35,962 nt of DNA. Source: Bacteroidetes bacterium 4572_112 (GTDB lineage: Bacteria > Bacteroidota > Bacteroidia > Bacteroidales > UBA1556). The notes beneath the pieces are model-generated. The model was not told the DNA's origin and made no database searches. It saw nothing but the letters and a program-made list of their open reading frames with translations. Positions 2,892-35,962 of this stretch are shown one piece after another (positions within the stretch are counted from its first letter, which is position 1; each line of letters begins with the position of its first letter). The stretch spans positions 1 to 35,962 of the forward strand of contig NIUZ01000039.1 of the NCBI GenBank assembly GCA_002254285.1. Reading direction: 5' to 3'. A program made the translations under genes and the position numbers.

Positions 2892-4979
2892 ATGAAAAAC
2901 ATAATTTTAGTTATAATATCCTTAATATATTTTAATGTCCTATATGCTCAAGTCCCAAGTTTTGAATGGATGAAGAGTAATGAGGGCTATCAAGGTAGTG
3001 TGGACCTTAGTAGTATGGAAATTGCTTCAGGAGGTAATATTTATTCTATAGGAAGTTTTAATGGTACGGTTGATTTTAATCCCAATCCAGCAGTTTTTTA
3101 TAATTTGACTTCAACTCCATATATGAATTCTTACTATATACAAAAGTTGGCCCCAAATGGTAATCTGGTTTGGGTAAAAACCATAGATATTACTATGGGA
3201 AGTCTTCGTTCTATAAAAATTGATGATAATGATAATTTGATTATTAGTGGAGGATTTAAGGATTCCGTTGATGTTGACCCTAGTACTGCTGTTAGTATGC
3301 TATACTCAAATGGTGATTATGATGTTTTTATATTGAAGCTAACTGCCAATGGTGATTTCCTTTGGGCAAAGTCTTTAGGAGGAATTGCAGATGACGTAAT
3401 TCAAGATATTACTATTGATTTGCAAGGCAATATATATTCCCATGGTTCTTTTAAAGATACTGTAGATTTTGACCCGGGACCGGGTGTATGTATTCATGGT
3501 ACAAATTATGCACCACCCCCTAGTCCACATCCACTTCGCAATCCATTTATTCAAAAGCTCGACAAAGATGGCAATTTTGTATGGGCCAAAACTTTTGTAT
3601 GTGGAGAGGGAAGTTCATCCATGGGTTATACAATAGATACAGACTCTGATGATAATGTATATTGTGCAGGTTATTATTTTGGTACTAATATAGATTTTGA
3701 CCCGGGTATTGGAGTAATTAACCCACCAGCCAATAATAGCAGTATGTATTTTGTAAAGCTCGATAGTATGGGAAGCTTTGTATGGACTAGGTTTTCTTCT
3801 AATACTGCTCCACTTGGCTATGGGGGTTATGCTAGCCCAAATGCAATGAAAGTAGATAGATTTAATAATATCTTTATTACAGGATATTCAGCCTTAAGTA
3901 TTGATTTTGACCCAGGACCTGATACTTTATTGCTTAATTCAAACACTTTTATACAAAAGTATAATGAAAATGGAGATTTCCTTTGGGCAAAAGCCTATGG
4001 TTATGGTGATGATCCATTGAGTATTACAACTGATACCTTTGGTAATGTATATTCTGCTGGTCGTTTTATAGATTCCACATACTTAGACCCTGTGTCAGAT
4101 ACCCTTGTTTTTCATAATAATGGAGTTGATGGTGCGTACATACAAAAGTTAAATACCAATGGAGAGCTTTTATGGGCAGGAATATTGCAAGGTAGTTGGG
4201 GATACTCTATAGCATTTGATATATTTGTGGATAATGCTGAAAATGTATTTTTAGCAGGAGTGTATGCAGGAACGGTTGATTTTGACCCAGGAGTAGGGGT
4301 TCAAAATAAAATAGCAGTAAGTTTAAATTATGGCGACTCCTACATCTTAAAACTAAGCCAATGCAAAATCCTCAGTACTGATTATGTAACAGCCTGCGAT
4401 AGCCTCACCTGGCTCGATGGAGTTACCTATTATGAATCGGGTTCAACGGCATATTTTACCATGCCAAGCTCCACAGGTTGCGATTCGGTAATTTGTCTTT
4501 CGCTTAATATTCCTAGCATTGATAATAGCATAAGCATTGGTGACTATGGCGGTAGTTTTACTGCCAATCAGAGCAACGCTAGCTACCAGTGGCTCGATTG
4601 TAATAATTCATTATCAGCCCTTGCTGGCGATACTTTGCAAACTTATATTCCAACGCTAAATGGCGATTATGCAGTGGAGCTTAATGTAGATGGTTGTATT
4701 GATACTACGGCCTGTGTGCATATTGGCAATGTAAGCATCGATGAGCTTTGGGGCAATAGCATTATGCTCTACCCAAATCCTAACTCTGGCGAATTTATGC
4801 TCGACCTAGGCAATATAGAAGCCACAGAAGTAAAAATACTAAACACAATGGGGCAAGTGATTTTTGTAGCACAAAACCCCAAAGACCAATATTATAATAC
4901 CGACTTGCAATCAGGAATTTATTTCATGGAAATTCGTAATAATAATGGTAGTGCAACTATTAAGTTTGTGGTGAATTAA
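2892..4979 (+). CDS. Secreted beta-propeller-like (SBBP-like repeats) protein with T9SS type A sorting domain
   Basis: Signal peptide; about seven repeats of (G/D)xVDFDPGxGV...IQKL...G(D/N)(F/L)LWAK; C-terminal LYPNPNSGEFMLDL...GIYFMEI. Confidence 0.85.
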   Translation: MKNIILVIISLIYFNVLYAQVPSFEWMKSNEGYQGSVDLSSMEIASGGNIYSIGSFNGTVDFNPNPAVFYNLTSTPYMNSYYIQKLAPNGNLVWVKTIDITMGSLRSIKIDDNDNLIISGGFKDSVDVDPSTAVSMLYSNGDYDVFILKLTANGDFLWAKSLGGIADDVIQDITIDLQGNIYSHGSFKDTVDFDPGPGVCIHGTNYAPPPSPHPLRNPFIQKLDKDGNFVWAKTFVCGEGSSSMGYTIDTDSDDNVYCAGYYFGTNIDFDPGIGVINPPANNSSMYFVKLDSMGSFVWTRFSSNTAPLGYGGYASPNAMKVDRFNNIFITGYSALSIDFDPGPDTLLLNSNTFIQKYNENGDFLWAKAYGYGDDPLSITTDTFGNVYSAGRFIDSTYLDPVSDTLVFHNNGVDGAYIQKLNTNGELLWAGILQGSWGYSIAFDIFVDNAENVFLAGVYAGTVDFDPGVGVQNKIAVSLNYGDSYILKLSQCKILSTDYVTACDSLTWLDGVTYYESGSTAYFTMPSSTGCDSVICLSLNIPSIDNSISIGDYGGSFTANQSNASYQWLDCNNSLSALAGDTLQTYIPTLNGDYAVELNVDGCIDTTACVHIGNVSIDELWGNSIMLYPNPNSGEFMLDLGNIEATEVKILNTMGQVIFVAQNPKDQYYNTDLQSGIYFMEIRNNNGSATIKFVVN

Positions 4980-6337: not shown

Positions 6338-7351
6338 TTATAATTCGAAAGTGTTTCCGCTATTAATTAAGTCAGTCATGTTTTTGATTTTAGATTTACC
6401 TTGTACATCAGAAATCTGAAGTTCCATTAGGTCGTTGTAAGTATGAGTTTTGTAGGCTCTAATTACACCAACAGCTACTGGTAATTCAGGAAGCGACATT
6501 CTAGCTAAAAGGAAAGCCATAGTGTTGTCTTCAGCTTTTGCATCATGAACAAGAATATCGTCCATAGTGTATCCGTCTTCACCAATTGTTACAGATTTAA
6601 TTTTTAAACCTTCAAGTACAAGACCTTTTTCTTTGTCCTTACCGAAAAGCATTTTCTCGCCATGCTTAATGTAAATTTGATTGTCGGCACGAGTTACTTT
6701 ATCAGTAATCTCTTTGTGAGTATTATTATTAAAAATAACACAGTTTTGAAGAACCTCAACCAAAGAAGCACCTTTATGCTTAGCAGCCTCAATGAAAATC
6801 TCTTTCATTTCCTTAGGGTTAGTATCAACAGCACGAGCGAAGAAAGTTCCTTCAGCTCCCATTGCCAACTCACCTGGTTTGAAAGGGTGTTCAATTGTTC
6901 CAAAAGGAGAAGTTTTAGTCTTCTGTCCTAGTGGAGTAGTTGGAGAATACTGTCCTTTTGTAAGGCCATAAATCTGGTTATTGAAAAGGATATAGTTAAC
7001 ATCAAGGTTACGACGTAGGATATGGATAAAGTGGTTACCACCAATTGCCATACTATCGCCATCACCAGACATAATCCAAACACTAAGTTCAGGATTAGCT
7101 AATTTTACTCCCGAAGCAATTGCTGCAGCACGTCCGTGAATACCATGGAAACCATAAGTGTCAACATAGTAAGGGAAACGTGATGAACAACCAATTCCTG
7201 AAACAAAAACTAGGTTTTCTTTCTTTACGCCAATCTCTGGCAATGTATTCTGAATAGATGCTAGTATAGAGAAATCTCCACATCCAGCACACCATTTTAC
7301 TTCTTGATCAGATACGAAATCTTTTCTTGTATATTGTTTAATCTCAGTCAT
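6338..7351 (-). CDS. korB: 2-oxoacid:ferredoxin oxidoreductase subunit beta
   Basis: WCAGCGDFSIL; SGIGCSSRFPYYVDTYGFHGIHGRA; SGDGDSMAIGGNH TPP-binding motifs. Confidence 0.93.
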   Translation of the reverse strand: MTEIKQYTRKDFVSDQEVKWCAGCGDFSILASIQNTLPEIGVKKENLVFVSGIGCSSRFPYYVDTYGFHGIHGRAAAIASGVKLANPELSVWIMSGDGDSMAIGGNHFIHILRRNLDVNYILFNNQIYGLTKGQYSPTTPLGQKTKTSPFGTIEHPFKPGELAMGAEGTFFARAVDTNPKEMKEIFIEAAKHKGASLVEVLQNCVIFNNNTHKEITDKVTRADNQIYIKHGEKMLFGKDKEKGLVLEGLKIKSVTIGEDGYTMDDILVHDAKAEDNTMAFLLARMSLPELPVAVGVIRAYKTHTYNDLMELQISDVQGKSKIKNMTDLINSGNTFEL

Positions 7352-9195
7352 TATTTAGCCTCCAAAATTTCGTTAAACTTGTCTTTTAATTCTGAAACCA
7401 TAAATGGTTGTGCTTCTATTTTATTGTACTTCTCATAATCAAATTCAGGAAGAGAATAACGTAAGTGATTAGCAAACTGTCCAGAGTTTAGTTCACATAC
7501 AAGAATTCTTTTGTATTTCTTGAAAATATCAGCAGTATCATTTGGTAGAGGGAATATGTAGTTGAAATTAGTAAAACCAATCTTAGCATCACTATTCTCT
7601 TTAACTTCGCTAAATGCGTCATAAAGCACACCATGCGAGCTACCCCAACCTACAATTAGTAAGTCACCTTCTTGATCGCCATATACATGCTGTGCAGGAT
7701 ATGAGTCAGCAATTTTGTCAATCTTAGCAGCACGAAGAGTAGTCATAAGAGCGTGGTTTTCTGGATCGTGAGATACAGAACCTTTGCCATCTAATTTCTC
7801 AAGACCACCAACACGGTGCTCATTACCTTCAGTACCTGGCCATGCCCATGTACGAACGAAATTCTCGTCGCGCTCAAATGGTAAATAGTCAGCATTTGCT
7901 TTTGCTATTTTAGGAGTAATTGATGGCATATCGTCCATATTAGGAATCTTCCATAATCCTGAACCATTACCTAGGTAACTGTCAGTATGAAGGATAACAG
8001 GAGTCATATGCTCAACAGCCATCTTAGTAGCAGCATAAGCATAATCAAAACAGTCAGCAGGACTAGAAGCAGCAATTACAGGAATTGGAGCTTCACCATT
8101 ACGACCCCAAAGAGATTGTAAAAGGTCAGTTTGCTCAGTTTTTGTTGGAAGACCAGTAGAAGGTCCACCACGCATTACATTCACAATCACAAGTGGAAGC
8201 TCAGTAATACAAGCAAGACCAAGAGCCTCACTCTTTAGACTTAAACCTGGACCCGAAGTAGTGGTAACAGCAAGGTTACCAGCATATGCAGCTCCTATTG
8301 CAGAGTTAATACCAGCAATTTCGTCTTCAGCTTGGAAAGTCTTTATATTTAAAGATTTATGCTTCGATAATTCAGCAAGAATTTCGGTAGCAGGAGTAAT
8401 AGGGTATGAACCTAAGAAAAAGTTCAAGCCTGATTTCTCAGCAGCAGCCATTAAACCCCATGCAGTAGCAGTATTTCCCATAATGTTACGGTACTTACCA
8501 CTTTTGTTCTCATTAGGAAGAACGATATATGTTGTTGATAATACTTCAATAGTATCAGCAAAATTATACCCAGCTCTTAAAATCTTAATGTTTGCATCTG
8601 CAATAGATGGCTTTTTAGCGAACTTAGAAGTGATAAAGTCTTCGCTAAGTTTAATATCTCTATTAAACATGTATGCAAGTAAACCTGTTATAAACTGATT
8701 TCTTGTTTTGTCAATAGTCTTTGAATCAAGACCTGTTTCTTTCAAAGTTAATCTACACTGAGTAGTAACAGGAGCTTCAACCACAATAAAGCCATCTAGT
8801 GAACCATCCTCAAGACGGTTAGTAGTAAGTTTAGCTTTTTTGAAAGCCTTTGCATTAAAACTGTCAGAGTCAAGAACGATTGTTCCGCCAGGTTTAACAT
8901 GCTTAAGGTTGTACTCCAGTGCAGCAGGGTTAAGTGCTACTAACACGTCAGCCATATCACCAGAGGTATTGATGTCTGCATGTCCAATATGAACTTGAAA
9001 ACCAGAAACTCCAGCTATTGTTCCTTGCGGAGCGCGAATTTCTGATGGGAAATCAGGGAAAGTTGCTAGGTCGTTTCCTAAAATAGCTGCTACATCAGAG
9101 AACTGAGTTCCTGATAATTGCATGCCATCTCCAGAGTCACCTGCAAACTTTATAACTATCCTTTCGACTTCGATTTTTTTGTTATTAGTCGCCAT
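7351..9195 (-). CDS. korA: 2-oxoacid:ferredoxin oxidoreductase subunit alpha (gamma-alpha fusion)
   Basis: FAGDSGDGMQLSGTQF gamma domain, GSYPITPATEI, QAEDEIAGINSAIGAAYAG; TAATG overlap with korB; start placed at MATNNKK. Confidence 0.93.
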   Translation of the reverse strand: MATNNKKIEVERIVIKFAGDSGDGMQLSGTQFSDVAAILGNDLATFPDFPSEIRAPQGTIAGVSGFQVHIGHADINTSGDMADVLVALNPAALEYNLKHVKPGGTIVLDSDSFNAKAFKKAKLTTNRLEDGSLDGFIVVEAPVTTQCRLTLKETGLDSKTIDKTRNQFITGLLAYMFNRDIKLSEDFITSKFAKKPSIADANIKILRAGYNFADTIEVLSTTYIVLPNENKSGKYRNIMGNTATAWGLMAAAEKSGLNFFLGSYPITPATEILAELSKHKSLNIKTFQAEDEIAGINSAIGAAYAGNLAVTTTSGPGLSLKSEALGLACITELPLVIVNVMRGGPSTGLPTKTEQTDLLQSLWGRNGEAPIPVIAASSPADCFDYAYAATKMAVEHMTPVILHTDSYLGNGSGLWKIPNMDDMPSITPKIAKANADYLPFERDENFVRTWAWPGTEGNEHRVGGLEKLDGKGSVSHDPENHALMTTLRAAKIDKIADSYPAQHVYGDQEGDLLIVGWGSSHGVLYDAFSEVKENSDAKIGFTNFNYIFPLPNDTADIFKKYKRILVCELNSGQFANHLRYSLPEFDYEKYNKIEAQPFMVSELKDKFNEILEAK

Positions 9196-9459
9196 TTTTA
9201 AATTATATATATTTAATTTTATGTGTTTTATTTCCACGACAAATGTAAAAGAATTATCCTATACTTTACTAAGGATTTGATGCGTTTTTTTTGTGATTAA
9301 TGTTTGTATTAAAATATGGAATATGGCAGCTTTTGTAAATTCATGTAAAAAGCTTGATTTTGAACATGTTCAAGGGCGTTATAATAATAACATTTTTGTT
9401 AGTAATTAGTGTAATGCATTGAATGAAAGTATTGTAAGTGTTATGTGTAAAAAAAATAG

Positions 9460-22881: not shown

Positions 22882-24141
22882 TTATCCTCCGAAATCATCA
22901 AAGGCAATCATCTCATCTGGTACACCAAGGTCTTCCAACATTTTAAGAACGGCATCGTTCATCATTGGAGGTCCACAAAGGTAATACTCAATTTCTTCTG
23001 GCTCTTCCATTTTCGATAGGTAGTTGTCGAGGATTATCTGATGGATAAATCCTACATAACCTTCCCAATTATCTTCTGGAGCAGGCTCCGAAAGTCCAAT
23101 ATGGAATTTGAATTGTGGGTTATCTTTTTCAATAGCCCTAAACTCATCCACATAGAATAGTTCTCTTAACGAGCGACCACCATACCAGAAAGTAGCTTTA
23201 CGATCTGTTTTCTGAGTTAAGTATTGATCGAATATATGCGAGCGCATAGGAGCCATTCCGGCACCACCACCAATAAACATCATCTCGCGCTTGGTATCCT
23301 TAATAAAGAACTCACCATAAGGTCCCGAAACCATAACTTTATCACCTGGCTTAAGGTTAAATATGTATGAAGAGCAAATTCCTGGGTTTACCTTAGCAAA
23401 ACCTTTATTCTTAGCATCCCACGGTGGAGTTGCAACACGAATATTAAGTTTCACAATATCACCTTCAGCAGGGTGGTTAGCCATAGAATATGCACGGTAT
23501 ATTGGCTCTGGATTTTTCATCACCAAATCCCACATATTAAAGTTGTCCCAATCGGCTTTATAGTCGTCACCAATAACCATATCTTTATAATTAACAGTGA
23601 TTTTAGGAACATCAATCTGAATATATCCACCTGAGCGGAAATCCATATGCTCGCCTTCAGGAAGACGTACCGTAAATTCCTTAATAAATGTAGCAACAGA
23701 TTCGTTAGAAACCACTTCGCATTCCCATTTCTTAATTCCGAATATCTCAGCTGGTACGCCAATACTCATATCGTTACGAACCTTCACCTGGCAACCAAGT
23801 CGCCAATGATCAGAAGCCTCTTTACGAGTAAAAAATCCTTTTTCAGTAGGAAGAATATCTCCACCACCATCAAGCACCTGTACTTTACACATTCCGCAAG
23901 TACCACCACCACCACAAGCCGATGGAAGGAAGATTTTCTCTTCGGTCATCTTGGCCAATAGTGTACCATCAGGATCAGTTTCTATTTCTTTTTCGCCATT
24001 AATAGTAAGCTTTACCTTTCCTTGAGGAGTAAGCTTTTTCTTTGCATATAGCAATATGCTCACCAATAGAAGCATTACGCCCAAAAAGGCTACAACGCTT
24101 ATTATAATTATGGTAGAGGTTGAAATTTCTGCTAATATCAT
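22882..24141 (-). CDS. nqrF: Na+-translocating NADH:quinone reductase subunit F
   Basis: 2Fe-2S LPSACGGGGTCGMCKVQV...LGCQ; FAD motif RAYSMAN; GGGAGMAPMRSHI; YYLCGPPMMNDAV. Confidence 0.95.
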   Translation of the reverse strand: MILAEISTSTIIIISVVAFLGVMLLLVSILLYAKKKLTPQGKVKLTINGEKEIETDPDGTLLAKMTEEKIFLPSACGGGGTCGMCKVQVLDGGGDILPTEKGFFTRKEASDHWRLGCQVKVRNDMSIGVPAEIFGIKKWECEVVSNESVATFIKEFTVRLPEGEHMDFRSGGYIQIDVPKITVNYKDMVIGDDYKADWDNFNMWDLVMKNPEPIYRAYSMANHPAEGDIVKLNIRVATPPWDAKNKGFAKVNPGICSSYIFNLKPGDKVMVSGPYGEFFIKDTKREMMFIGGGAGMAPMRSHIFDQYLTQKTDRKATFWYGGRSLRELFYVDEFRAIEKDNPQFKFHIGLSEPAPEDNWEGYVGFIHQIILDNYLSKMEEPEEIEYYLCGPPMMNDAVLKMLEDLGVPDEMIAFDDFGG

Positions 24142-24151
24142 ATCTTTAAAA

Positions 24152-24769
24152 TTATAATTTTATACCCATAAATGTCATGAAAGCAATACCCATAATACCT
24201 GTAATTACGAAAGTAATTCCTAGGCCACGTAGTGGAGCAGGTACGTTTGAATACTGAATCTTCTCGCGAATAGCAGCAATCGCTACAATAGCCATAAACC
24301 AACCTACACCCGAACCAAGTCCGAATACTGTTGCCTCGGCAATGTTTTGATATTCTCGCTGTTGCATAAATAATGATCCACCAAGTATTGCACAATTTAC
24401 TGCAATAAGAGGAAGGAAAATTCCTAGTGATGCATATAATGAAGGAGAGAATTTCTCAACAATCATTTCCACAAGCTGTACCATTGATGCTATAATGGCA
24501 ATAAACATGATAAAGCTAAGGAAGCTAAGGTCTATAGTAGCATACTCTTCGCCCATCCACTGCAATGCGCCAGGCTTAAGAAGGTATTCGTTCATAAGGT
24601 AGTCAACAGGTACTGTAATTATCAAAACGAAAATTACTGCTGCACCAAGTCCTACCGATGTTTTTACTGTTTTCGATACTGCCAAATAGGAACACATTCC
24701 AAGGAAGTACGCAAACACCATATTGTCTACAAATATGGATTTTACAAATATATTTACTAAATCTTGCAT
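24152..24769 (-). CDS. nqrE: Na+-NQR subunit E
   Basis: VFAYFLGMCSYLAVSKTVKTSVGLG; LIAVNCAILGGSLF. Confidence 0.95.
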   Translation of the reverse strand: MQDLVNIFVKSIFVDNMVFAYFLGMCSYLAVSKTVKTSVGLGAAVIFVLIITVPVDYLMNEYLLKPGALQWMGEEYATIDLSFLSFIMFIAIIASMVQLVEMIVEKFSPSLYASLGIFLPLIAVNCAILGGSLFMQQREYQNIAEATVFGLGSGVGWFMAIVAIAAIREKIQYSNVPAPLRGLGITFVITGIMGIAFMTFMGIKL

Positions 24770-24795
24770 ATTAATTTCTTTAAAATATTATCAAA

Positions 24796-25257
24796 TTAAT
24801 CTTCAACTAGGTCAGTATTGCGCGAGCGCTGAATCCAAATAATAGTTGCAACAGCAAATAGAGCCATTGGTGGTAATAATACCAAACCATTATTTACATA
24901 TCCTAAATCATAAAATGAGTCAGGGATAATTTTCATTCCCATAAGTGATCCTGTTCCGAATAACTCACGGAAAAAAGCCACTGCAACAAGTATCCATGCA
25001 TATCCTGCACCGTTTCCTAGTCCATCGAGGAAAGCAGGCCAAGGTTTGTTTGACATAGCAAATGCCTCAAAACGTCCCATGATAATACAGTTGGTAATAA
25101 TAAGTCCAACAAATACCGATAGCTGCTTGCTTACATCATAAGCGAAGGCTTTAAGTACTTGGTCAACAAGGATTACCAGTGCCGCAATTACTACTAATTG
25201 AACAATGATACGAATACGAGAAGGAATTCCGTTTCGCATGAATGAGATCACCATTAC
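24796..25257 (-). pseudogene. nqrD: Na+-NQR subunit D, apparently lacking its N-terminal region/TM1
   Basis: Homology begins abruptly at [60 protein letters not shown]; the expected N-terminal NPITVQVLGICSALAVT-type segment is not in the window; further upstream the reading frame is nqrC DNA out of frame. Confidence 0.75.
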
Positions 25258-25927
25258 ATGTAAGTGTACTTCCTGATATAGCATCAATACCATTTATGGC
25301 ATCAATATCCGATTGGTTTGCAACGCCACCTTTTATCACAGATACCGATACAAATTTATCATCTTTAAAAATCTGTTTTCCAATAAATCTGTTAGTAAAG
25401 TCAGGTAGAATAATCTCTGCTCCAAGTCCAGGAGTTTCGCTATCGTGTCCAAAATTTACTGCTGCCACAGTGTTTTTGTCAGAATCTAATGAGATGTTTC
25501 CATAAATAGGACCCCAAAGTCCTTTTCCAAATAGTGGAATTATATAGAAAGTTTCTCCATTATTATTCATAACAAACAATGGCATTGCTGTAATGTTTTT
25601 AGAATTAGCATTATATAATGCTGTTTTTAGATTTACGTCAAAAGCACGAGTAGTACCTGTAAGTTCGCCATTGGCAAAGGTGCTAATCTCTTCTCCTTTT
25701 TCGTTTATTATCACCTCTTTAACAAGGTGCTTTTTGTATAAGTCAGCTGCTGTAGTTGCATCAGCTGCCACACCTATTGATCCCAATAGGTTGATCATTT
25801 TTTCGTTTTGCTTATTTTTATCCTGCAAAGGTTTTAGCGCAAGATTGGCTGAGGTAAGAATTACCGCTACCAATACCACCATAACCGAAGCATAAATAAA
25901 AATGTATGAATTACTATTCTTGTTCAT
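25163..25927 (-). pseudogene. nqrC: Na+-NQR subunit C, C-terminus replaced by out-of-frame nqrD sequence
   Basis: Homology runs through [14 protein letters not shown] (about 25252), then [28 protein letters not shown] is the alternative frame of nqrD. Confidence 0.75.
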
Positions 25928-25947
25928 ATCGTTAAATTATTTAATGG

Positions 25948-27099
25948 TTAAGCGCTAAGTTTAGCACGTTTAAGTCTTTTCTTTATGTTTGAATCCACCA
26001 CGTAGAAGTCAATTGTTGGAGCAAATACGTTCATAAATAGTATTGCCAACATTACACCTTCTGGATAAGCAGGATTTAGCACCCTTACAAGTATAGCAAT
26101 GAATCCGGCCAAGAAGCCATAAATCCATTTTCCTGTTTCGGTTTGTGCTGCTGTTACTGGATCGGTAATCATAAATACACCACCAAAGGCAAATCCACCA
26201 ATTAGGATATGCTCCCAAGGACATAATTGTAAGTATGTATTGTCAGGGAATGATCCTGATAATAAGTGAAGAATTCCTCCCATTGCGATACCTCCCACGA
26301 AGAACGATAACATCAATTTCCAATTTCCTACTCCTGTTACCAATAGTATAAAGGCGCCTATTGCCAAAGCAATAATTGAAGTCTCACCAATGGATCCTGC
26401 GTAGTTTCCTACTATCATTTCCATATGGCTAATTCCGGCACCATGTCCTGCTGTAAGCTCTGCTAGTGGAGTTGCTCCTGAGAAAGCATCAGCTTTTTCG
26501 GCAATCCATACTTTGTCACCACTCATTGCTGAAGGGTAAGCGAAGAATAATACTGCTCTTGTTAATAGGGCAGGGTTTACAATGTTCATCCCTGTACCTC
26601 CGAAAACTTCTTTTCCGAAAATAACAGCAAAAGCTACTGCCACAGCAACCATCCATAATGGAGTAGATACTGGTACAATTAGCGGAATAAGCATTCCCGA
26701 TACAAAGAAACCTTCGTTTACTTCGTGACCTCTGCCTTGGGCAAACATTATCTCAATTCCCAATCCTACTACATAAGTAACAATGATGATTGGTAGCACT
26801 TGCCATAATCCATAAACAAAGGCATCCATTATAGATGCTGTTTCGCCAATGGAAGTAAAATGCATATTTCCAGCATTCCACATTCCGAAGAATAAAGCTG
26901 GCATCATGGCTATTACAACCATAAACATTGAGCGCTTCATATCCACACCGTCTCTGATGTGACTTCCCGATGTTGTAACTACGTCGGGAGTATAAAATAA
27001 AGTATCAGCGGCGTCATACATAGAGTGAAAAGCCTGAAACTTTTCTCCCTTTTGCACGTGAGGCTTTATATTGTCTAATATATTTCTTATAAATTTCAT
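25948..27099 (-). CDS. nqrB: Na+-NQR subunit B
   Basis: SGATPLAE FMN-Thr motif; GKEVFGGTGMNIVNPALLTRA; EGFFVSGMLIPLI. Confidence 0.96.
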   Translation of the reverse strand: MKFIRNILDNIKPHVQKGEKFQAFHSMYDAADTLFYTPDVVTTSGSHIRDGVDMKRSMFMVVIAMMPALFFGMWNAGNMHFTSIGETASIMDAFVYGLWQVLPIIIVTYVVGLGIEIMFAQGRGHEVNEGFFVSGMLIPLIVPVSTPLWMVAVAVAFAVIFGKEVFGGTGMNIVNPALLTRAVLFFAYPSAMSGDKVWIAEKADAFSGATPLAELTAGHGAGISHMEMIVGNYAGSIGETSIIALAIGAFILLVTGVGNWKLMLSFFVGGIAMGGILHLLSGSFPDNTYLQLCPWEHILIGGFAFGGVFMITDPVTAAQTETGKWIYGFLAGFIAILVRVLNPAYPEGVMLAILFMNVFAPTIDFYVVDSNIKKRLKRAKLSA

Positions 27100-27119
27100 T
27101 ATCGATAAATTATCATTAA

Positions 27120-28466
27120 TTAACTCATTTCCTTACGTAATTCATCAAGACCCTCGCGGAGTACTTTCTGAATGTCAATTTTAGAAGTACTGATGTATTC
27201 GCATAATGCTATATCCTCTTCATCAACTTCGTAAATTCCCAAATTCTCCATCATATCTATATCATTAATCATAATCGATTTGATAAGTTGAATAGGGTAT
27301 ATGTCCATAGGGAAAACCTTCTCCATCTGTCCTGTAAAAACAAAAGCACGCTCACCACCGTTCATATTAGTGTTTAGAGTGTACTCTTTGTTTGGACTTA
27401 ACCACGAGAAAGCTGTTCTGTAAAAACTATGCTTTTTAGGACTTGGAATTAACCAACCGAAAAACTCAAATATATTTCCTTCAGGAATTACTGTTAATGA
27501 GTTATGGTAGTAAGAAAGTGAGCCCTTAGGTCCAATATTGCTACCAGTAAGTACATTACCACTAATGATTCTAACAGGGTTCTCAGTTTTAAGTTTTCCT
27601 TCAATAATTTCAGCAATACAAGCACCACGGTTCACCTTATAGTATTGAGGCTCTTTAACCTCAGAACCTGTCAATGCAATTGTAATTTCAGGTTTGTACT
27701 CGCCAGTTAGGAATAAATTACCAATGGTGGCAACATCCTGAGCTTGTACTACCCATACAATCTCACCTTTATTAATTGGTGATACATGATGAATCTGAAT
27801 CCCTACATTTCCTGCTGGGTGAGGCCCAGAGAAAGTGTTGATTTCTACATTCTTAATATCTTTAAGGAAAGAACTAGTTTTGGAACTAATTCCTAAGTTT
27901 ACTTTTCCTTCAGTAAGTTTTGCCAGAGCATCAACTCCTGCTTGAAAGGCCTCTTCTAAGCCCGCAAGGCTGAAATCCAAATCAGCCGCTAGTGGAGCGC
28001 TATCAAAACCAGATATAAATACTGATTTTGGCTTATCCTCAGGATTTGCTACAACAGTATACGGACGTTGGCGGACCAAAGACCAAAGGCCACTTTCTAA
28101 AAGTTGCTCTTTGATTGCTTTTGCATCCAGAGTTGAAGGTTGAGCTTTGCCGAAAGAAACAAAATCGTTGCTGCCATCGGCCTCAATCTTTATCTCAAGC
28201 ATTTTACGCTTTGCACCTCTAACTATTTCAGTAATTGTACCACTAACTGGGGATGGGATTTTTACGTACTCCCTTTTTTTATCAAAGAAGACAGGAGCGC
28301 CTCTTTTTACTTTGTCTCCCACTCTTGCTGACAGTTTTGGCAGCATCCCGTGAAAGTCGGTAGGTTTTAATGCATAATGACTTGTATTTATTTCTTGCAC
28401 TTCTTTTTGCGCAGTTCCTACAAGTTTTATGTCATAACCTTTCTTTATCTTAATATTCATTGACAT
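27120..28466 (-). CDS. nqrA: Na+-NQR subunit A
   Basis: KGYDIKLVG; LIRQRPYTVVA-like LVRQRPYTVVANPEDKPKSVFISGFDSAPLAADLDF; GPHPAGNVGIQIHHVSPIN. Confidence 0.96.
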   Translation of the reverse strand: MSMNIKIKKGYDIKLVGTAQKEVQEINTSHYALKPTDFHGMLPKLSARVGDKVKRGAPVFFDKKREYVKIPSPVSGTITEIVRGAKRKMLEIKIEADGSNDFVSFGKAQPSTLDAKAIKEQLLESGLWSLVRQRPYTVVANPEDKPKSVFISGFDSAPLAADLDFSLAGLEEAFQAGVDALAKLTEGKVNLGISSKTSSFLKDIKNVEINTFSGPHPAGNVGIQIHHVSPINKGEIVWVVQAQDVATIGNLFLTGEYKPEITIALTGSEVKEPQYYKVNRGACIAEIIEGKLKTENPVRIISGNVLTGSNIGPKGSLSYYHNSLTVIPEGNIFEFFGWLIPSPKKHSFYRTAFSWLSPNKEYTLNTNMNGGERAFVFTGQMEKVFPMDIYPIQLIKSIMINDIDMMENLGIYEVDEEDIALCEYISTSKIDIQKVLREGLDELRKEMS

Positions 28467-28506: not shown

Positions 28507-29254
28507 ACCTAACAAAAGTGAATTATATAATACTACAAATATGGTAAAAAAAATTAAGTCATCACTACTTAATAGTTAAATAAAAACGGTTAAAAAACTA
28601 ACATTTCTCATAAAATAACATAAAGTATCAGAAAATGAAGATATTATAATCAAATAGTTATAAGAATAACAGCTAAGTTTATTTAATAACAACGCCTTAT
28701 TTAGAATAGTAAACTTCTTTGAAAATTAAAGTGTTTTTGTTTTTTTTATTTGGCTATTATAAATAGTGTTTTTACAAGAGCCAAGTTTAATTTGTGATTA
28801 TTTGCGCGGACTAATTGTAATTATTGGGATAAATTTTCCACTTATGTAATACTAAATATTTATAAATGGTATATACACTAAGTATTATAAAATACAGTAT
28901 ATCAAATATATAAAGGATTATATTGCTTGCCTATGATTTTGTATATGGTTAATTATTTGTAATGAAATATTTTGCAGATTGACTAAAATCAATTACTTTT
29001 AGAAATATTTTGGTAGGTAAATTGTTCTCTGAATTTATGCTAATTTATAATATGAGATAAGTTACTTTCTTAGGTGTTTTGTCTTTGTGTTCAAATATAT
29101 CTAACATCATTATAAATAATACTGATAAATGAGAGTAGTTTATTACTTTTGTGAGCACAAATAGAAAAAGTCTGTGTTGAATTTTGTTGTTACAAAAATA
29201 GCAAGACATTTATTTGGTTTGAATATTAATAGGTTTAATTATAATAATAGTTTT

Positions 29255-29749
29255 ATGAAATTCAAGAACATTTTTGTTGCTTTTCTTGTGATATTGTTGG
29301 GGTGGATGCTTCTGACGTGGTCATTGGAACTGCAGAGTATATTGCTCGGTGTTGGAATTTCGGCAGTATTGTCGTTATTGCTCTGCGGTAGTTGTACTCT
29401 TTTTAATGAGATTAACCTTACACCTAAGGCTTTTGCTTATTCTTTTTGGTACTTAATTGTATTTCTAATAGAGTTGGTTAAAGCTAATATTGATGTAACG
29501 CGAAGAGTGCTTTCGCCTTCAATGCCTATAAATCCAGGTATTGTGAAAGTAGAGACTACTCTAAAATCTAAAATGGCTCGTTTGATTCTTGCTAACTCTA
29601 TCACATTAACGCCAGGTACATTTACCATTGAGATAAATGACGACGCGCTTTATGTGCACTGGATTGATGTTGAGAGTGATGATGTAGAAGGCGCAACGAA
29701 AGCGATAGTAAGTAAATTTGAAAAGTTATTGGAGGTAATGTATGGATAA
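29255..29749 (+). CDS. MnhE/MbxA-like subunit
   Basis: FWYLIVFLIELVKANIDVTRRVLSPSMPINPGIVKVETTLKSKMARLILANSITLTPGTFTIEI; start chosen at MKFKNIF. Confidence 0.9.
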   Translation: MKFKNIFVAFLVILLGWMLLTWSLELQSILLGVGISAVLSLLLCGSCTLFNEINLTPKAFAYSFWYLIVFLIELVKANIDVTRRVLSPSMPINPGIVKVETTLKSKMARLILANSITLTPGTFTIEINDDALYVHWIDVESDDVEGATKAIVSKFEKLLEVMYG

Positions 29750-30002
29750 TATAGTTATTTATATTGCTTTAGTAATGTTGATGGTAACATTATTAGCAGG
29801 GCTGATAAGGTTTGTAAAAGGACCTTCGGTAGTAGATAAAGTTGTGGGCTTTGATTCCATGACAATCACCTCTTTGGTGATGATTGGTGTTATAGCTTAT
29901 TTGTCGAATCGTGCTATTTATTTAGACGTAGCAGTGGTATATGGCTTCCTTAGTTTCTTAGGAGTTATTATTGTTGCTAAATATATACAAGGAGGACTAT
30001 AA
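29742..30002 (+). CDS. MnhF/MbxB-like subunit
   Basis: RFVKGPSVVDKVVGFDSMT...YLDVAVVYGFLSFLGVIIVAKYI. Confidence 0.9.
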   Translation: MDNIVIYIALVMLMVTLLAGLIRFVKGPSVVDKVVGFDSMTITSLVMIGVIAYLSNRAIYLDVAVVYGFLSFLGVIIVAKYIQGGL

Positions 30003-30003
30003 T

Positions 30004-30381
30004 ATGGGCGAGACAATAAAATTAATCGGTGAAATATTTCTGTTAATAGGTTCATTTAGCCTTATGACAGCAGCTGTAGGTTTACTACGTATGCCAGATG
30101 TATATAATAGAGTGCAAACAGGTACTAAAGCTTCTACTTTGGGAGCATTAATGTCGTTTGTAGGCTTAGCAATGATGAGTTTTGATCATTGGCAAGAAAC
30201 AAACTGGGTAGGTAGATTCTTGGTTTTAGTGATTTTCATTCTTCTTACAAATCCAGTTTCGTCACATGTGTTGATGCGTGCTGCTTATGCTATGAAAATA
30301 CCTTTATCAAAGCTTACTTCAGTAGATAAACTAAAGGAAGATATTAATAATAAAGTTTTGGAGGAACCTAAAGATGAATAG
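30004..30381 (+). CDS. MnhG/MbxC-like subunit
   Basis: GSFSLMTAAVGLLRMPDVYNRVQTGTKASTLGA; VILLTNPVSSHVLMRAAY-like. Confidence 0.9.
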   Translation: MGETIKLIGEIFLLIGSFSLMTAAVGLLRMPDVYNRVQTGTKASTLGALMSFVGLAMMSFDHWQETNWVGRFLVLVIFILLTNPVSSHVLMRAAYAMKIPLSKLTSVDKLKEDINNKVLEEPKDE

Positions 30382-30631
30382 TGAAATGATATATAGCTTA
30401 ATAGCTATCGGAATAGGTATTCTTATGTTAATAATGGCAGTAATTGCTATTCTTAATGATAAGTTATCTGTAGCAGTTATAGCTGCTGGTGTTGTTAGTT
30501 TATTTGCCTCAGTACTGTTTTTATTAATGGCGGCTCCCGATGTTGCAATGACAGAAGCTGCTATTGGTAGTGGACTTTCAACTTTAATTTTCTTTTATGT
30601 ATTAAATAAAATCAAAAGACAAAATGCTTAG
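30374..30631 (+). CDS. DUF4040/MbhD-like subunit
   Basis: LMAAPDVAMTEAAIGSGLSTLIFFYVLNK. Confidence 0.88.
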   Translation: MNSEMIYSLIAIGIGILMLIMAVIAILNDKLSVAVIAAGVVSLFASVLFLLMAAPDVAMTEAAIGSGLSTLIFFYVLNKIKRQNA

Positions 30632-31331
30632 AAATTTTTTAATAGCATTAGTTTTGGCTAGCTTTGGATTCATATTTCTGAATCTATATAATAGCTATGA
30701 GCCAAAAACTGAGCTTACAGGTATTGCAGCCCATTATGCAGAAAATGGTGCTAGTGAAGTTGGTGCAGCCAACCTTGTTACTGCTGTGGTGGTTTCTTAT
30801 CGTTCTTTTGATACTTTAGGAGAAATTACCATACTATTCCTTACCGCTGCTATCATCTCTTTCTTCTTGAAATTGAGCAACGAGGACGAAAATAAAGTTA
30901 TTATCCACAAAGGAACTTCAGAAATTCTTAAAACAGCTTCTCAACTCCTTATACCCCTCATATTCTTATTTGGAGTGTATGTGTTCATCAACGGACACCT
31001 TACTCCCGGTGGAGGTTTTCAGGGAGGTGCGATTATAGCATCAGGAGTAGTATTAGCTATTATGGCTAATCCTAATATGACCATCAACCATACTGTAATA
31101 GTGTGGGTAGAAAGTCTGTCGGGTGTTACAGTGGTAATAATTGGTGTACTAGGAATTATCCTTGGTGGTGGTTTCCTTGATAGTACGCTAGATGGATATG
31201 GCCTTGGTGAATTTGGAACTGTTTTTAGCGCAGGTACTATCCCTGTTATCTATAGCCTTGTAGGCTTAAAGGTAGGAGCAGAGATTTCAAATATCTTGAA
31301 TAAATATCAAAAATCACAAAAAGAATCATAG
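30624..31331 (+). CDS. MnhB/MbhE-F-like subunit
   Basis: VVSYRSFDTLGEITILFLTAAI (MbhE-like) then FINGHLTPGGGFQGGAIIASGVVLAI (MnhB). Confidence 0.88.
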   Translation: MLRNFLIALVLASFGFIFLNLYNSYEPKTELTGIAAHYAENGASEVGAANLVTAVVVSYRSFDTLGEITILFLTAAIISFFLKLSNEDENKVIIHKGTSEILKTASQLLIPLIFLFGVYVFINGHLTPGGGFQGGAIIASGVVLAIMANPNMTINHTVIVWVESLSGVTVVIIGVLGIILGGGFLDSTLDGYGLGEFGTVFSAGTIPVIYSLVGLKVGAEISNILNKYQKSQKES

Positions 31332-31333
31332 AT

Positions 31334-31714
31334 ATGGAAACTTTGGAATTAGGAAAAATAGGATTACTTATCGGTTTCTTGCTAGTGATAGTTGGTTTCT
31401 GGGGTATCCTTCAACAGAAAAACATTATTAAGATTATTGTGAGCTTCACAATTCTTAATACAGGTATAAACTTAGTAATGGTTGCTTTGGGCTATATTAA
31501 AGGTCGCACAGCTCCTATTATTGATGACTCAGTGGAGCAATTAGCTAATCACAATGTGATAAATGCTATTGTCGATCCTGTGCCACAAGCTCTTGTACTT
31601 ACGGCTATTGTTATTGGTTTTGGTGTTACATCATTACTATTAGCATACGCAATGAAGCTTTTTAGAGCTAAGAAAACATTAGAAATTAATCAGTTTAACG
31701 ATTTGAAATGGTAG
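31334..31714 (+). CDS. MnhC/NuoK-like subunit
   Basis: NLVMVALGYIKGRTAPI...IVDPVPQALVLTAIVIGFGVTSLLLAYAMKL. Confidence 0.92.
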   Translation: METLELGKIGLLIGFLLVIVGFWGILQQKNIIKIIVSFTILNTGINLVMVALGYIKGRTAPIIDDSVEQLANHNVINAIVDPVPQALVLTAIVIGFGVTSLLLAYAMKLFRAKKTLEINQFNDLKW

Positions 31715-34700
31715 ATCCAATTTTTATAGTAGTTGCTGCTCTAGGAGTAGGCTTCTTAATCGGTATCTTAGGGAAATTGGGAAAAACTTTTACCGGTTTG
31801 TTATCCCTTCTTACAATTGCTTTTATGACTTACGTTTCCGCAGGTTGGCTTTTAGCCTTCTATTCAGGAAGCCAAGTGGCAGAAGTAATCACCACCGCAG
31901 GTTTTCAAGCACCATTCTCCATTAGTTTACTAATGGGATATAATGAGGCTTTCCTTACAACAATAGTCAATTTTATGGGCTTACTTGGTGGAATTTATTT
32001 ATTCTTCAACTTTGGTCGTAAAGGTCGAAACGCTTACGTTGTTTATATCGTTTTCCTTATGGGATTAAACGTTGTGATAATGAGTCGTGACCTTTTTAAC
32101 CTTTTTGTATTCCTCGAAATTACTTCGATTGCTACAGCAGGACTTATCCTTATTGAGGATGGTAACCGTACCGTAGGTGCTGGTTTTAAATATATGCTAG
32201 CTACTTCGGTAATATCAAGTATTTTCCTTTTGGGAATTATATTTATATACTTCTTTACAGGCACTCTTAGTCTTGAGGATTTATATAATAATGCAAACCT
32301 TCAGAATGCGGGTGGCGCAATAGCAATTTTCCTTGTGATGGTTGCTGCCATACTAGAAATGAAACCTTTTCCTGCCAATGGTTGGGGACTGGATGTTTAT
32401 GAAGGCTCGCATCAAGGTTTCTCAGCGTTAATTTCTACTGCTACAGCTACAGCATCTTTTTATATGCTATATAAGATATTGCTTATTGCAGGTGCTGCTT
32501 GGAATTACCCTATCGCACTTATCGGTGCATTCACCTTTATCGGTGCCAACCTTTTTGCAGTAAAACAAAAGTATGCTCGTCGTATGTTATCTTATTCTTC
32601 AATTGGTCAGCTAGGTCTTTTGATGATGATAATGGGACTTAGAGAGTATTTAGGCGATAACCTTAACTTTATTGTTGTTACAGTTCTTCTTACCAATGTT
32701 CTTGCTAAATCAGGTTTCTTCTGGTTAATTGGAATGGTAAAAGCTCTTAAACTTAAAGAATGGGCAATTATTCGTCGCAAGCCGTTTATGCTTTTCCTAA
32801 TGGGAGTATTTATTTTTGCTCTTATCGGATTTCCTCCATTCCCTTCTTTCTTTGGAAAATGGGAGTTTATCATGAGCCTAGCTAAAGTTGGTGGTTTCAG
32901 CTGGATTGCTGTTATCCTTATAGGTTCATTCTTTGAGGCAATATATTTATTCCGCTGGTACGGGATGGCTGTTAAAGGTGAAGATATTTATGATAACCTA
33001 GAATTTAAAACTAAGTTAAATAAACTTATTCCAGTTGGAATAGTAACTGCACTATTATTTATTATCGGATATTTTTCAGCACAATATACAGAAGCTGGAG
33101 CAATGATTAACTTCATTCCTTTCATATTTGTATTGGTATTATTTGCTGTTGACAAACTTCCTTTAATGGTTAAAAACATAGCTTCAATAGCTGCTTTGGC
33201 TCTTCATTTTTATATGATTTATCCAAACTTAGCTGGCGACAATCTTCGCTTGATATTTGAAGTAATATTTATGGTTGGTGGTATTCTTACCCTAATCGCA
33301 GGTTTCTCTTATAAAGGTGTTCGTCGTGGTTTTTATCCAGTAGCAATTCTTATGTATGCTGGTTTAACTGCTATTATCGAAGCTCATACAACTCTAGGGT
33401 TCTTCTACGGTTGGGAGTTAATGACTGCAGGTTCTTACTTCCTTATTATAAGAGGTAAAAAATCTATGCCACATGCTCTTAGTTATATGTTATTTAGTAT
33501 TGCTGGTGCTTATGCTATCCTTGCAGGATTTAGTATTGCAGGTATTGGATATACTGATTTCAATTTAGATATTCTTAATAATATTCAATATTTCCCAAAT
33601 TGGGCTTATGGTTTATTGCTGGTTGGTTTCTTAACCAAAACAGCTTCTATCGGTCTTCATATTTGGTTACCTGGTGCTCACGGTGAAGCCGAGAGTGATG
33701 TATCGCCAATGGTATCAGCTATATTACTTAAAGCTGGTGTATTTGGAGTAGTACTTACTCTTATCGGAATGACTAAGTCAGATTTTGATCTGAGCACTCT
33801 AGCATATATACTTGGTTGGATTGGTGCTCTTACTGCTTTGGTTGGAAATATCGGAGCTGTATTCCAAGAAGATGCTAAGCGTTTGCTAGCTTATTCTTCA
33901 ATTGGTCAGCTAGGTTATATCATTTTTGCTTTCGCAATTATGACTCACTTGGGTTGGTTAACAGGTTTTACTTATACAATCAATCACTTTATGTATAAAG
34001 CAGTACTCTTCCTTACAATAGGAGCAGTGGTATTGCGTACAGGTACTCATAATATGTACGAAATGGGTGGTTTGATTAAGAAAATGCCTTTCGCTTTTGT
34101 AGCTGTATTAATTGGAATTATCGCTCTATCGGGTGTGCCGCCTTTGTCAGGTTTCACAGGTAAATGGTTATTCTATAATGCTGTAATCGAAAAAGGTTGG
34201 TACTTCCAAGGAACAATAGTTTTCTTCTCTGGTGGATTGGCTTTCTTATATCTTTTCCGCTTGATTCATACTATATTCTTGGGTCAGTTGAAAGATAATC
34301 ACCGCGAGTTGAAAGAGATTTCTATTTGGTTCTTAATACCAATATATACTCTTATTGCAGGTTTGATGGTGTTTTCTGCCAAGCCACAATGGGTATTACA
34401 ACCTCTAGGCGAAATTATTGCCAACTACTTCCCTAATGGAGGTTTACGTTGGGACGGTGCTTTTGCATACACTCAGCTAGGACATTGGACTGGTACAGGA
34501 GTTATGATCACAATTGCAACAGTATTTGTAAGTATTCTTATTATACTTAAAATGCTTACTCGCAAAGCACACAAACTTGAACAATTTGATGTGGTATTCT
34601 CAGGCGAGCGTCCTGAAAGACCAGAAACTACACATATAGCATACAATATGTACGCAGGATTCTATAAAGCTGTTTGGCCATTAACTCTTCCTTATTTCGA

Positions 34701-34848
34701 GAAATTTTGGGAGTGGGCAACAAATATAGTTCATGAGACTGCAGGATTCGGACGTCGTGTTTATAGCGGTAACGGACAAGCTTATATGTTACATATTGTT
34801 CTATTTATTATTGTTTTATTCTTTATAACAATTGGAGGAAGTTTATAA
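31708..34848 (+). CDS. Fused tandem antiporter-like (MrpD/NuoL-N-like) subunit, two modules (H-H' fusion)
   Basis: Module 1: FVFLEITSIA, EMKPFPANGWGLDVYEGSHQGFSAL, RRMLSYSSIGQLG, NVLAKSGFF. Module 2: YGWELMTAG, KTASIGLHIWLPGAHGEAESDVSPMVSAILLKAG, AKRLLAYSSIGQLGY, NHFMYKAVLF. Confidence 0.92.
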   Translation: MVDPIFIVVAALGVGFLIGILGKLGKTFTGLLSLLTIAFMTYVSAGWLLAFYSGSQVAEVITTAGFQAPFSISLLMGYNEAFLTTIVNFMGLLGGIYLFFNFGRKGRNAYVVYIVFLMGLNVVIMSRDLFNLFVFLEITSIATAGLILIEDGNRTVGAGFKYMLATSVISSIFLLGIIFIYFFTGTLSLEDLYNNANLQNAGGAIAIFLVMVAAILEMKPFPANGWGLDVYEGSHQGFSALISTATATASFYMLYKILLIAGAAWNYPIALIGAFTFIGANLFAVKQKYARRMLSYSSIGQLGLLMMIMGLREYLGDNLNFIVVTVLLTNVLAKSGFFWLIGMVKALKLKEWAIIRRKPFMLFLMGVFIFALIGFPPFPSFFGKWEFIMSLAKVGGFSWIAVILIGSFFEAIYLFRWYGMAVKGEDIYDNLEFKTKLNKLIPVGIVTALLFIIGYFSAQYTEAGAMINFIPFIFVLVLFAVDKLPLMVKNIASIAALALHFYMIYPNLAGDNLRLIFEVIFMVGGILTLIAGFSYKGVRRGFYPVAILMYAGLTAIIEAHTTLGFFYGWELMTAGSYFLIIRGKKSMPHALSYMLFSIAGAYAILAGFSIAGIGYTDFNLDILNNIQYFPNWAYGLLLVGFLTKTASIGLHIWLPGAHGEAESDVSPMVSAILLKAGVFGVVLTLIGMTKSDFDLSTLAYILGWIGALTALVGNIGAVFQEDAKRLLAYSSIGQLGYIIFAFAIMTHLGWLTGFTYTINHFMYKAVLFLTIGAVVLRTGTHNMYEMGGLIKKMPFAFVAVLIGIIALSGVPPLSGFTGKWLFYNAVIEKGWYFQGTIVFFSGGLAFLYLFRLIHTIFLGQLKDNHRELKEISIWFLIPIYTLIAGLMVFSAKPQWVLQPLGEIIANYFPNGGLRWDGAFAYTQLGHWTGTGVMITIATVFVSILIILKMLTRKAHKLEQFDVVFSGERPERPETTHIAYNMYAGFYKAVWPLTLPYFEKFWEWATNIVHETAGFGRRVYSGNGQAYMLHIVLFIIVLFFITIGGSL

Positions 34849-34850
34849 TT

Positions 34851-35765
34851 ATGACAAATTTTTCAAATATTGGATATACATTACTTGGTTTATTTTTAGT
34901 ACTAAACTGGGGAATGTTGATGAGCGCAACTTTTAGAAAGATTGTTGCTCGCGTGGCTGGACGTCACGGAATACCAATTTATCAACCATGGATTGATCTT
35001 GTAAAGAATGCTGGTACTCGTACCACTCTTTCGCATGGTGTAATGTTCTACTTAGGGCCTGTTTTTCGCCTTACTGGAGCTGTTGGTATGTTTTTATTTA
35101 TGCCTGCTCTTGTAGGAGTTGGTAATGATCATTGGTTAAACTTTTCATTCCAAGGCGATATAGTTCTTGTTCTTTACTTCCAACTGTTTGGAATGTTGGG
35201 AATGGCTCTTGGTGCTGGTGAAGGTGGACAACCTCACTCTGCTATCGGTATTGGTCGTGGTTTGGCGCAACATGCTGCTATTGAGCTTCCTTTAACTTTA
35301 GGAATACTCTCTTTGGCTATTCAATATCAAACTCTATCATTGGTTGATATTGCAAATGCTCAACAAGGTGGATTTTTGAATTGGTCGTTATTTACTAACC
35401 CAATAGCTTCAGCAGCAATATTACTTGCAGCTCTTGGTGCTATGGGTCACTCACCATTTAACTTGGTGAAAGCTCCTAACGAAATTCCTATTGGCCCTCC
35501 AACAGAATATCATGGTAGTTACCTAGGTATACTAATGTCTAGTGGTGCTATTATCCACGTTATGGAAGCAGCATTATTTATGAACCTTGTGTTCGGTGGT
35601 GCTACTAACTGGATTGAGTTTATTATAAAAACATTCCTAATTTATTTCTACTCTGTATTTGTGGGCGTTGTATTCCCCCGTTTCAGAATAGAGCAGTCAG
35701 TGGTTTGGTTCTTCAAACTGCCACTAGTTTTAGGAATAATCGCTATTTTAATCTATAGTTTTTAA
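34851..35765 (+). CDS. NuoH/MbhM-like membrane subunit
   Basis: GIPIYQPWIDLVKNAGTRTTLSHG; SPFNLVKAPNEIPIGPPTEYHGSYLGIL; FPRFRIEQSVVWFFK. Confidence 0.9.
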   Translation: MTNFSNIGYTLLGLFLVLNWGMLMSATFRKIVARVAGRHGIPIYQPWIDLVKNAGTRTTLSHGVMFYLGPVFRLTGAVGMFLFMPALVGVGNDHWLNFSFQGDIVLVLYFQLFGMLGMALGAGEGGQPHSAIGIGRGLAQHAAIELPLTLGILSLAIQYQTLSLVDIANAQQGGFLNWSLFTNPIASAAILLAALGAMGHSPFNLVKAPNEIPIGPPTEYHGSYLGILMSSGAIIHVMEAALFMNLVFGGATNWIEFIIKTFLIYFYSVFVGVVFPRFRIEQSVVWFFKLPLVLGIIAILIYSF

Positions 35766-35776
35766 TTTAGAGTATT

Positions 35777-35962
35777 ATGTCAGAAATAGATATGAATGAT
35801 AAGATGAACGAATTGCTTAAAAAGGCAGAGGTTAATTCTTCTACCAAAGAGGCAAAATCATTTGTTCGTCCTGAAGATGAAGAGAGAGAAGTAATTGCTC
35901 CCGATGGATCTATAATTAAAGTAAATCCTATTTACGATTACTTTAGTGGAGAAAAGCCAACT
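35777..35962 (+). CDS. Partial CDS, next gene of the operon (product not identifiable)
   Basis: ATG 11 bp after the NuoH-like gene; open to window end: MSEIDMNDKMNELLKKAEVNSSTKEAKSFVRPEDEEREVIAPDGSIIKVNPIYDYFSGEKPT. Confidence 0.7.
   Translation, partial: MSEIDMNDKMNELLKKAEVNSSTKEAKSFVRPEDEEREVIAPDGSIIKVNPIYDYFSGEKPT

Follow-up and report, generated by a model that had tools for sequence, protein, structure and literature searches.

Several complexes that carry antiporter-type modules have been described. In the membrane-bound sulfane sulfur reductase (MBS, earlier MBX; PDB 6U8Y) of Pyrococcus furiosus, the proton path has been assigned to E138, E219, K250, H330, and K393 of MbsH and to E128, K217, K248, H336, and K399 of MbsH' (PMC7684303). 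Loop 1 of MBS contacts the redox arm, and the three-Cys cluster itself reduces polysulfide, with C25 being dispensable (PMC7684303). The MBX of Thermotoga maritima is a published unfused bacterial MBX (PMC9431562). NuoN of E. coli depends on its TM8 Lys, K247, as K247A leaves about 10–13% of the NADH oxidase activity, and most pumping is retained in the TM7 mutant K217A (PMC13073174).

The window analysed in this work is contig NIUZ01000039.1 (positions 1–35,962; 35,962 nucleotides) of Bacteroidetes bacterium 4572_112 (assembly GCA_002254285.1). At 31708..34848 on the forward strand, it encodes an MbsH-MbsH' fusion (HH') of 1046 aa that starts with ATG and is read in a single unbroken frame. 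HH' is the distal MbsH joined to the proximal MbsH' of a complex of the MBX/MBS type, an ancient relative of respiratory complex I. With a probability of roughly 60%, we read this complex as a redox-driven pump where module 2 is canonical and module 1 is rewired. A description of a fused MbsH-MbsH' was not found in the open-access literature that was searched, which by itself does not prove that there is none.

The two modules of the fused protein

The original prediction of a 1046-aa tandem fusion of two antiporter modules is borne out by the single frame and by two stretches of PF00361 in the HH' ORF. Module 1 (residues 1–461; 31708..33090, forward strand as are all features of this gene) is MbsH-like with 14 helices, and its best PDB match is MbsH (6u8y_H, E 2e-32). 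Module 2 (residues 465–1046; 33100..34848) is MbsH'-like with 16 helices and a lateral helix, and its best PDB match is MbsH' (6u8y_X, E 9e-56). Loop 1 (residues 958–980; 34579..34647) is the TM15-16 loop of module 2. The best NCBIfam models are PRK08377 ('subunit N') for the first half and PRK08668 ('NADH dehydrogenase subunit M') for the second half, where both matches are under the model cut-offs and both titles are identical to the PDB titles of the two MBS chains. The defence-system models gave zero matches.

Structure prediction of the halves, which had been proposed as a check, yielded an AF2 model with a pLDDT of 83.9 and a pTM of 0.86. Each half of the model matches chains of 6u8y and Mrp; MbsH', MbsH, MrpD, and NuoN are among the known structures that were matched. 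Both hydropathy and the AF2 model, from which the helices of both modules were also assigned, exhibit a very short loop between the last helix of module 1 and the first helix of module 2. The joining of the two chains thus requires no change of topology.

Taxonomic distribution of the fusion

HH' could be a frameshift, read-through, or assembly artefact that joins two genes, since H and H' are two genes only a few bases apart in the other MBX operon of the same organism. This reading is refuted by the conservation of the single frame, and its probability is practically nil. One open frame of about 1045 aa is found in 35/393 genomes of the order (28/325 among the good ones) and in other phyla. 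One of the genomes of the order that have it is a single contig, and in RefSeq a homologue from a complete plasmid is listed as a single CDS. The original prediction had proposed to check whether other Bacteroidetes encode the halves as one or two genes; they are one gene in those 35 genomes, and two genes in the second operon of the genome of the window (contig C173).

Full-length HH' was identified in one frame in 13 of the 99 relatives (49–89% identical), and two more are split by contig ends. In a genome collection, the fused protein is a single ORF of about 1040–1080 aa. In an even sample of the phylum, HH' was found at a strict cut-off in 1/396 genomes, which is the genome of the window itself. 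The host groups in the genome collection are Bacteroidota, Neomarinimicrobiota, Spirochaetota, and alpha-, beta-, and gamma-Proteobacteria. Second fused paralogues, which open frames of about 1126 aa suggested in four genomes (G062, G001, G071, and G008), were rejected as split genes with a stop between them; the intergenic stop was established in the DNA of those that were read.

A branch with full support unites all fused proteins in both the module 1 tree and the tree of both modules. A single fusion is the simplest reading of this single branch. The HH' fusion is real and old.

Operon organisation and genomic surroundings

The operon has the order E-F-G-D-B-C-[HH']-M-J-K-L-X, and the contig of the window ends inside J. 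All of its genes within the window are on the forward strand. The first subunit is MrpE/MbsA-like (29174..29749; PF01899; start codon uncertain), followed by MrpF/MbsB-like (29742..30002; PF04066), MrpG/MbsC-like (29971..30381; PF03334; start codon uncertain), MbhD-like (MbsD; 30374..30631; PF13244), a fused MbhE and MrpB (MbsE-like; 30624..31331; PF20501 and PF04039), and MrpC/NuoK-like (MbsG; 31334..31714; PF00420) subunits. Downstream of HH' are a NuoH/MbsM-like membrane anchor (34851..35765; PF00146) and the start of the J subunit (35777..35962), which is cut by the window end and whose N-terminus matches the complete J of a relative (L027).

K, L, and X of this operon are absent from the assembly owing to the contig end, and the sole L found there belongs to the other operon. 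M, J, K, L, and X are located downstream of HH' wherever the contig extends far enough, except in the stand-alone group described below. In the operons of relatives, M-J-K-L-X is complete, with N as the first domain of X. The redox arm (M, J, K, L, and N) is thus seen as M and the start of J in the window and with all of its parts in relatives. In the relative L027, the gene after X (3825–4811, reverse strand) encodes a dihydroorotate dehydrogenase-like protein of about 328 aa (PRK07565), which occupies the same position in the fused operons of other Bacteroidota loci.

The genome of the window also carries a second, unfused MBX operon (contig C173, locus L026, 7981–18990) with the order E-F-G-D-B-C-H-H'-M-J-K-L-X, in which H has the canonical TM8 Lys and a Glu at TM7+2.

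A gene group resembling Na+-NQR (22882–28466, reverse strand) is divergent to the MBX operon in the window; it comprises an NqrF-like oxidoreductase and, by reading, NqrA/NqrB-like ORFs. Two ion-pumping redox systems are thus placed side by side. The reverse strand at 6338–9237 encodes a 2-oxoacid:ferredoxin oxidoreductase (POR_N/POR and TPP_enzyme_C), which is a possible source of reduced ferredoxin.

Redox arm

In every fused locus with a J subunit, the first Cys of the proximal-cluster motif is Gly and the other three Cys are kept. The L subunit of relatives keeps only two of the four Ni-ligand Cys (RxC and the Cys of the C-terminal CPPxxR). Relatives therefore exhibit the three-Cys proximal cluster and the two-of-four Ni ligands that are also found in MBS. 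A group 4 [NiFe] hydrogenase (MBH) was ruled out, since the L subunits of relatives do not have all four Ni-ligand Cys. The X subunit of relatives (about 600 aa) begins with a NuoI-like ferredoxin domain, and its FAD and NAD(P) domains are GltD/NfnB-like. HH' of the window is not part of a stand-alone Mrp, as M and J lie downstream and loop 1 is present. By analogy with MBS, the reaction is most likely an NAD(P)H- or ferredoxin-linked reduction of sulfane or disulfide that would be coupled to ion pumping.

Charged residues of module 2

Residues of both modules were assigned by alignment to MbsH and MbsH' of PDB 6u8y. Module 2 exhibits the full H' charge axis of MBS: the TM5 Glu E570 (33415..33417), the TM7 Lys K644 (33637..33639), the TM8 Lys K675 (33730..33732), the TM11 His H760 (33985..33987), and the TM12 Lys K819 (34162..34164), which corresponds to MbsH' K399. 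H760 is the second His of an HxxxH pair, so it is not H336 itself. This set is kept in 31/31 fused proteins, with the TM12 Lys replaced by Arg in five.

The TM5 Glu had been predicted in both halves, and both are present (E137 and E570). The lysines named as TM12-type in LAKSGFF and MYKAVLF exist as K334 and K764, but they belong to TM11, where they correspond to MbsH K338 and MbsH' K344, respectively. The true TM12 lysines, K384 and K819, are other residues, and both halves have them.

Charged residues of module 1

The charge axis of MbsH (E138, E219, K250, and K393) is only partly found in module 1. The TM5 Glu E137 (32116..32118; MbsH E138), the TM7 Glu E217 (32356..32358; MbsH E219), and the TM12 Lys K384 (32857..32859; in GFPPFPSFFGK; MbsH K393) are kept, and so is the TM11 Lys K334 (32707..32709). 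At the position of the TM8 Lys, T248 (32449..32451) aligns with MbsH K250, as anticipated by the original prediction, and the alignment of fused homologues has Thr, Ser, or Ala there and never Lys (31/31). K256 was considered as a displaced TM8 Lys and rejected; its counterpart in the MbsH alignment is R258, and a basic residue at the end of TM8 is nothing unusual.

A further residue, which had escaped the original prediction, is K219 (32362..32364), located at TM7+2 where MbsH has E221. The E217-x-K219 pair is invariant, and each of E137, E217, K219, K334, and K384 is conserved in 31/31 fused proteins. The signature around K219 is E[LM]KPFPANGW with single exceptions among these 31 proteins. 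By alignment, the fused family is marked by a missing TM8 Lys combined with the presence of K219. The AF2 model places K219 in the TM7 break, directly past the helix end at 217, a position from which it may substitute for the TM8 Lys.

Two other proposed peculiarities of module 1 hold for the window but lose their significance in comparison. The HxWLP motif is confined to module 2, but its absence from module 1 is not a special loss, since P. furiosus MbsH, with its TM7 Glu E219, itself has LNAW (NxW) there. The NH before the Lys is also limited to module 2 in the window, where V326/N330 occupy the TM11 His positions of module 1, but 27/31 fused homologues have this His, so its loss is mainly a trait of the genus of the window. 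The modules have indeed diverged, and part of this divergence is the ordinary difference between MbsH and MbsH'.

Having dropped the TM8 Lys while the Glu of TM5 and TM7 and the Lys of TM11 and TM12 stayed invariant, module 1 would pump otherwise or not at all. It might no longer have a central pumping path and serve as a spacer, structural as well as coupling, that sits between module 2 and the MrpB/E/F/G-like Na+ module, with K219 only balancing the charge of E217. The Lys that is gone in 31/31 fused proteins is essential in NuoN (PMC13073174), the TM11 His of module 1 is lost too in the genus of the window, and the TM8 Lys has likewise disappeared from module H in other bacterial MBX, where H' mostly keeps it. 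However, the invariance of five charged residues (E137, E217, K219, K334, and K384) across several phyla, including the stand-alone subclade, is unexpected for a mere spacer, and the scaffold role that the original prediction had offered is hence rather unlikely.

The other role that it had offered, transport of a different ion such as Na+ by module 1, is distinctly improbable. Genes of the Mrp sodium module are present in the operon, the Na+-NQR operon adjoins it, and the altered charges of TM7 and TM8 could shift selectivity. However, the Na+ path of MBS has been proposed in the MrpB/E/F/G-like module, outside MbsH (PMC7684303), and a Na+ site was not identified in module 1. The preferred reading is that of a rewired module 1.

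Loss of the TM8 Lys beyond the fusion

In a wider set, 45/45 sequences with Lys at TM7+2 (ExK) are without the TM8 Lys. It is normally retained where an MbsH-like protein has ExE, the exception being one locus (L134) with ExE and Thr, and some ExA proteins have Glu or Gly at this position. An unfused clade of Clostridia, Acholeplasma-like bacteria, and a deltaproteobacterium shares both ExK and the TM8 loss, so these changes were not caused by the fusion. They have at most two origins on the tree, which is below the reach of significance, and the pairing of ExK with TM8 loss is thus not a statistically significant covariation. Unfused MbsH that lack both the TM8 Lys and K219 (Glu or Gly, and L134) suggest that the Lys may be dispensable in this module.

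In the unfused MbsH of five loci (L068 and L071–L074; some Spirochaetes, Zixibacteria, and one Bacteroidetes genome), the TM8 Lys is replaced by Glu. The MbsH' of several of these loci has Arg in place of the TM8 Lys, which alters the same axis.

The stand-alone subclade

Seven fused proteins (L060–L066) from Rhizobium, Microvirga, the Chelatococcus group, Paraburkholderia, and Burkholderia are encoded in operons that comprise E, F, D, G, B, and C but none of M, J, K, L, and X. A complete plasmid of Rhizobium (NZ_CP063398.1, 437775–450828; L136) is annotated with the same redox-less layout. Some of these operons are located on plasmids of root-nodule bacteria. The main L-subunit matches in six stand-alone genomes are 28–34% identical, as expected of complex I NuoD, and those in two redox-linked genomes are 65% identical. 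Loop 1 is missing in all seven stand-alone proteins and present in 23/23 of the others that reach the C terminus. Without redox subunits and loop 1, the Rhizobium/Burkholderia subclade has the features of a stand-alone Mrp.

The stand-alone proteins nest inside the redox-linked clade in the whole-protein tree (96 and 97). Trees that hold the redox-linked proteins together were rejected for the whole protein at p-AU 0.029, for a group picked after the tree was seen, and module 1 alone gave a p-AU of 0.255, which is not significant. This nesting, with the redox arm and loop 1 missing, indicates that a redox-driven complex probably reverted to a plain stand-alone antiporter in this subclade. The pattern of TM8 and K219 is unchanged in the stand-alone proteins and is thus independent of redox coupling.

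Proposed mechanism

In relatives with the complete operon, the NuoI/GltD-like X is the probable entry point of electrons from NAD(P)H or ferredoxin. These would pass to J, where a sulfane or disulfide substrate would be reduced at the three-Cys iron-sulfur cluster. The resulting change may reach the membrane arm by way of M and of loop 1 in module 2. Module 2 would pump protons by the canonical Glu/Lys/Lys/His/Lys path. In module 1, where the TM8 Lys is gone, the middle charge is most likely supplied by the invariant K219 of the TM7 break, which would make module 1 a rewired pump and not a dead one. A more specific version, where the middle Lys moved from TM8 to the TM7 break (E217-x-K219) and altered the coupling of module 1, and where the subclade went from a redox pump to a plain cation/proton antiporter, is tentative, with the odds somewhat against it as a whole.

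Comparison with known systems

Which charged residues pump in the modules of complex I, MBH, MBS, and Mrp is debated, and so is how the modules are coupled. HH' is a natural test case for the working of antiporter-type pumps.

MBS of P. furiosus shares the subunit set and the order of parts with the fused operons. Both also have the TM7 Glu in H, loop 1 and the lateral helix in H', the three-Cys proximal cluster in J, and an L subunit with two of the four Ni ligands. However, H and H' are separate chains in MBS and one chain here, and MbsH has K250 and E221 where the fused protein has T248 and K219. MbsJ keeps the dispensable C25, whereas Gly is found there in the fused operons. Unlike in MBS, the N of the bacterial operons is part of X, joined to an NAD(P)H oxidoreductase.

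The unfused bacterial MBX has a gene set in common with the fused operons, including the NuoI/GltD-like X, and the J and L motifs of C173 are the same. It differs in its separate H and H', and C173 has the TM8 Lys and the TM7+2 Glu. One genome therefore carries a matched pair of MBX complexes, where the unfused one has the canonical TM8 Lys and the fused one lacks it but has K219.

NuoN/NuoM of complex I and MrpD/MrpA of Mrp exhibit the common antiporter-module fold and the same charge axis as module 2, but they are separate chains. NuoN has a TM7 Lys and an essential TM8 Lys (PMC13073174), unlike module 1.

The stand-alone fused Mrp of Rhizobium, Paraburkholderia, and Chelatococcus has the same HH' and the same module 1 pattern, without M, J, K, L, X, and loop 1. 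In this subclade, the membrane arm has stayed while both the redox arm and loop 1 are gone, which provides a second natural comparison. The usual evolutionary direction is from Mrp to complex I, and the subclade, if the reading of its history is true, represents the reverse.
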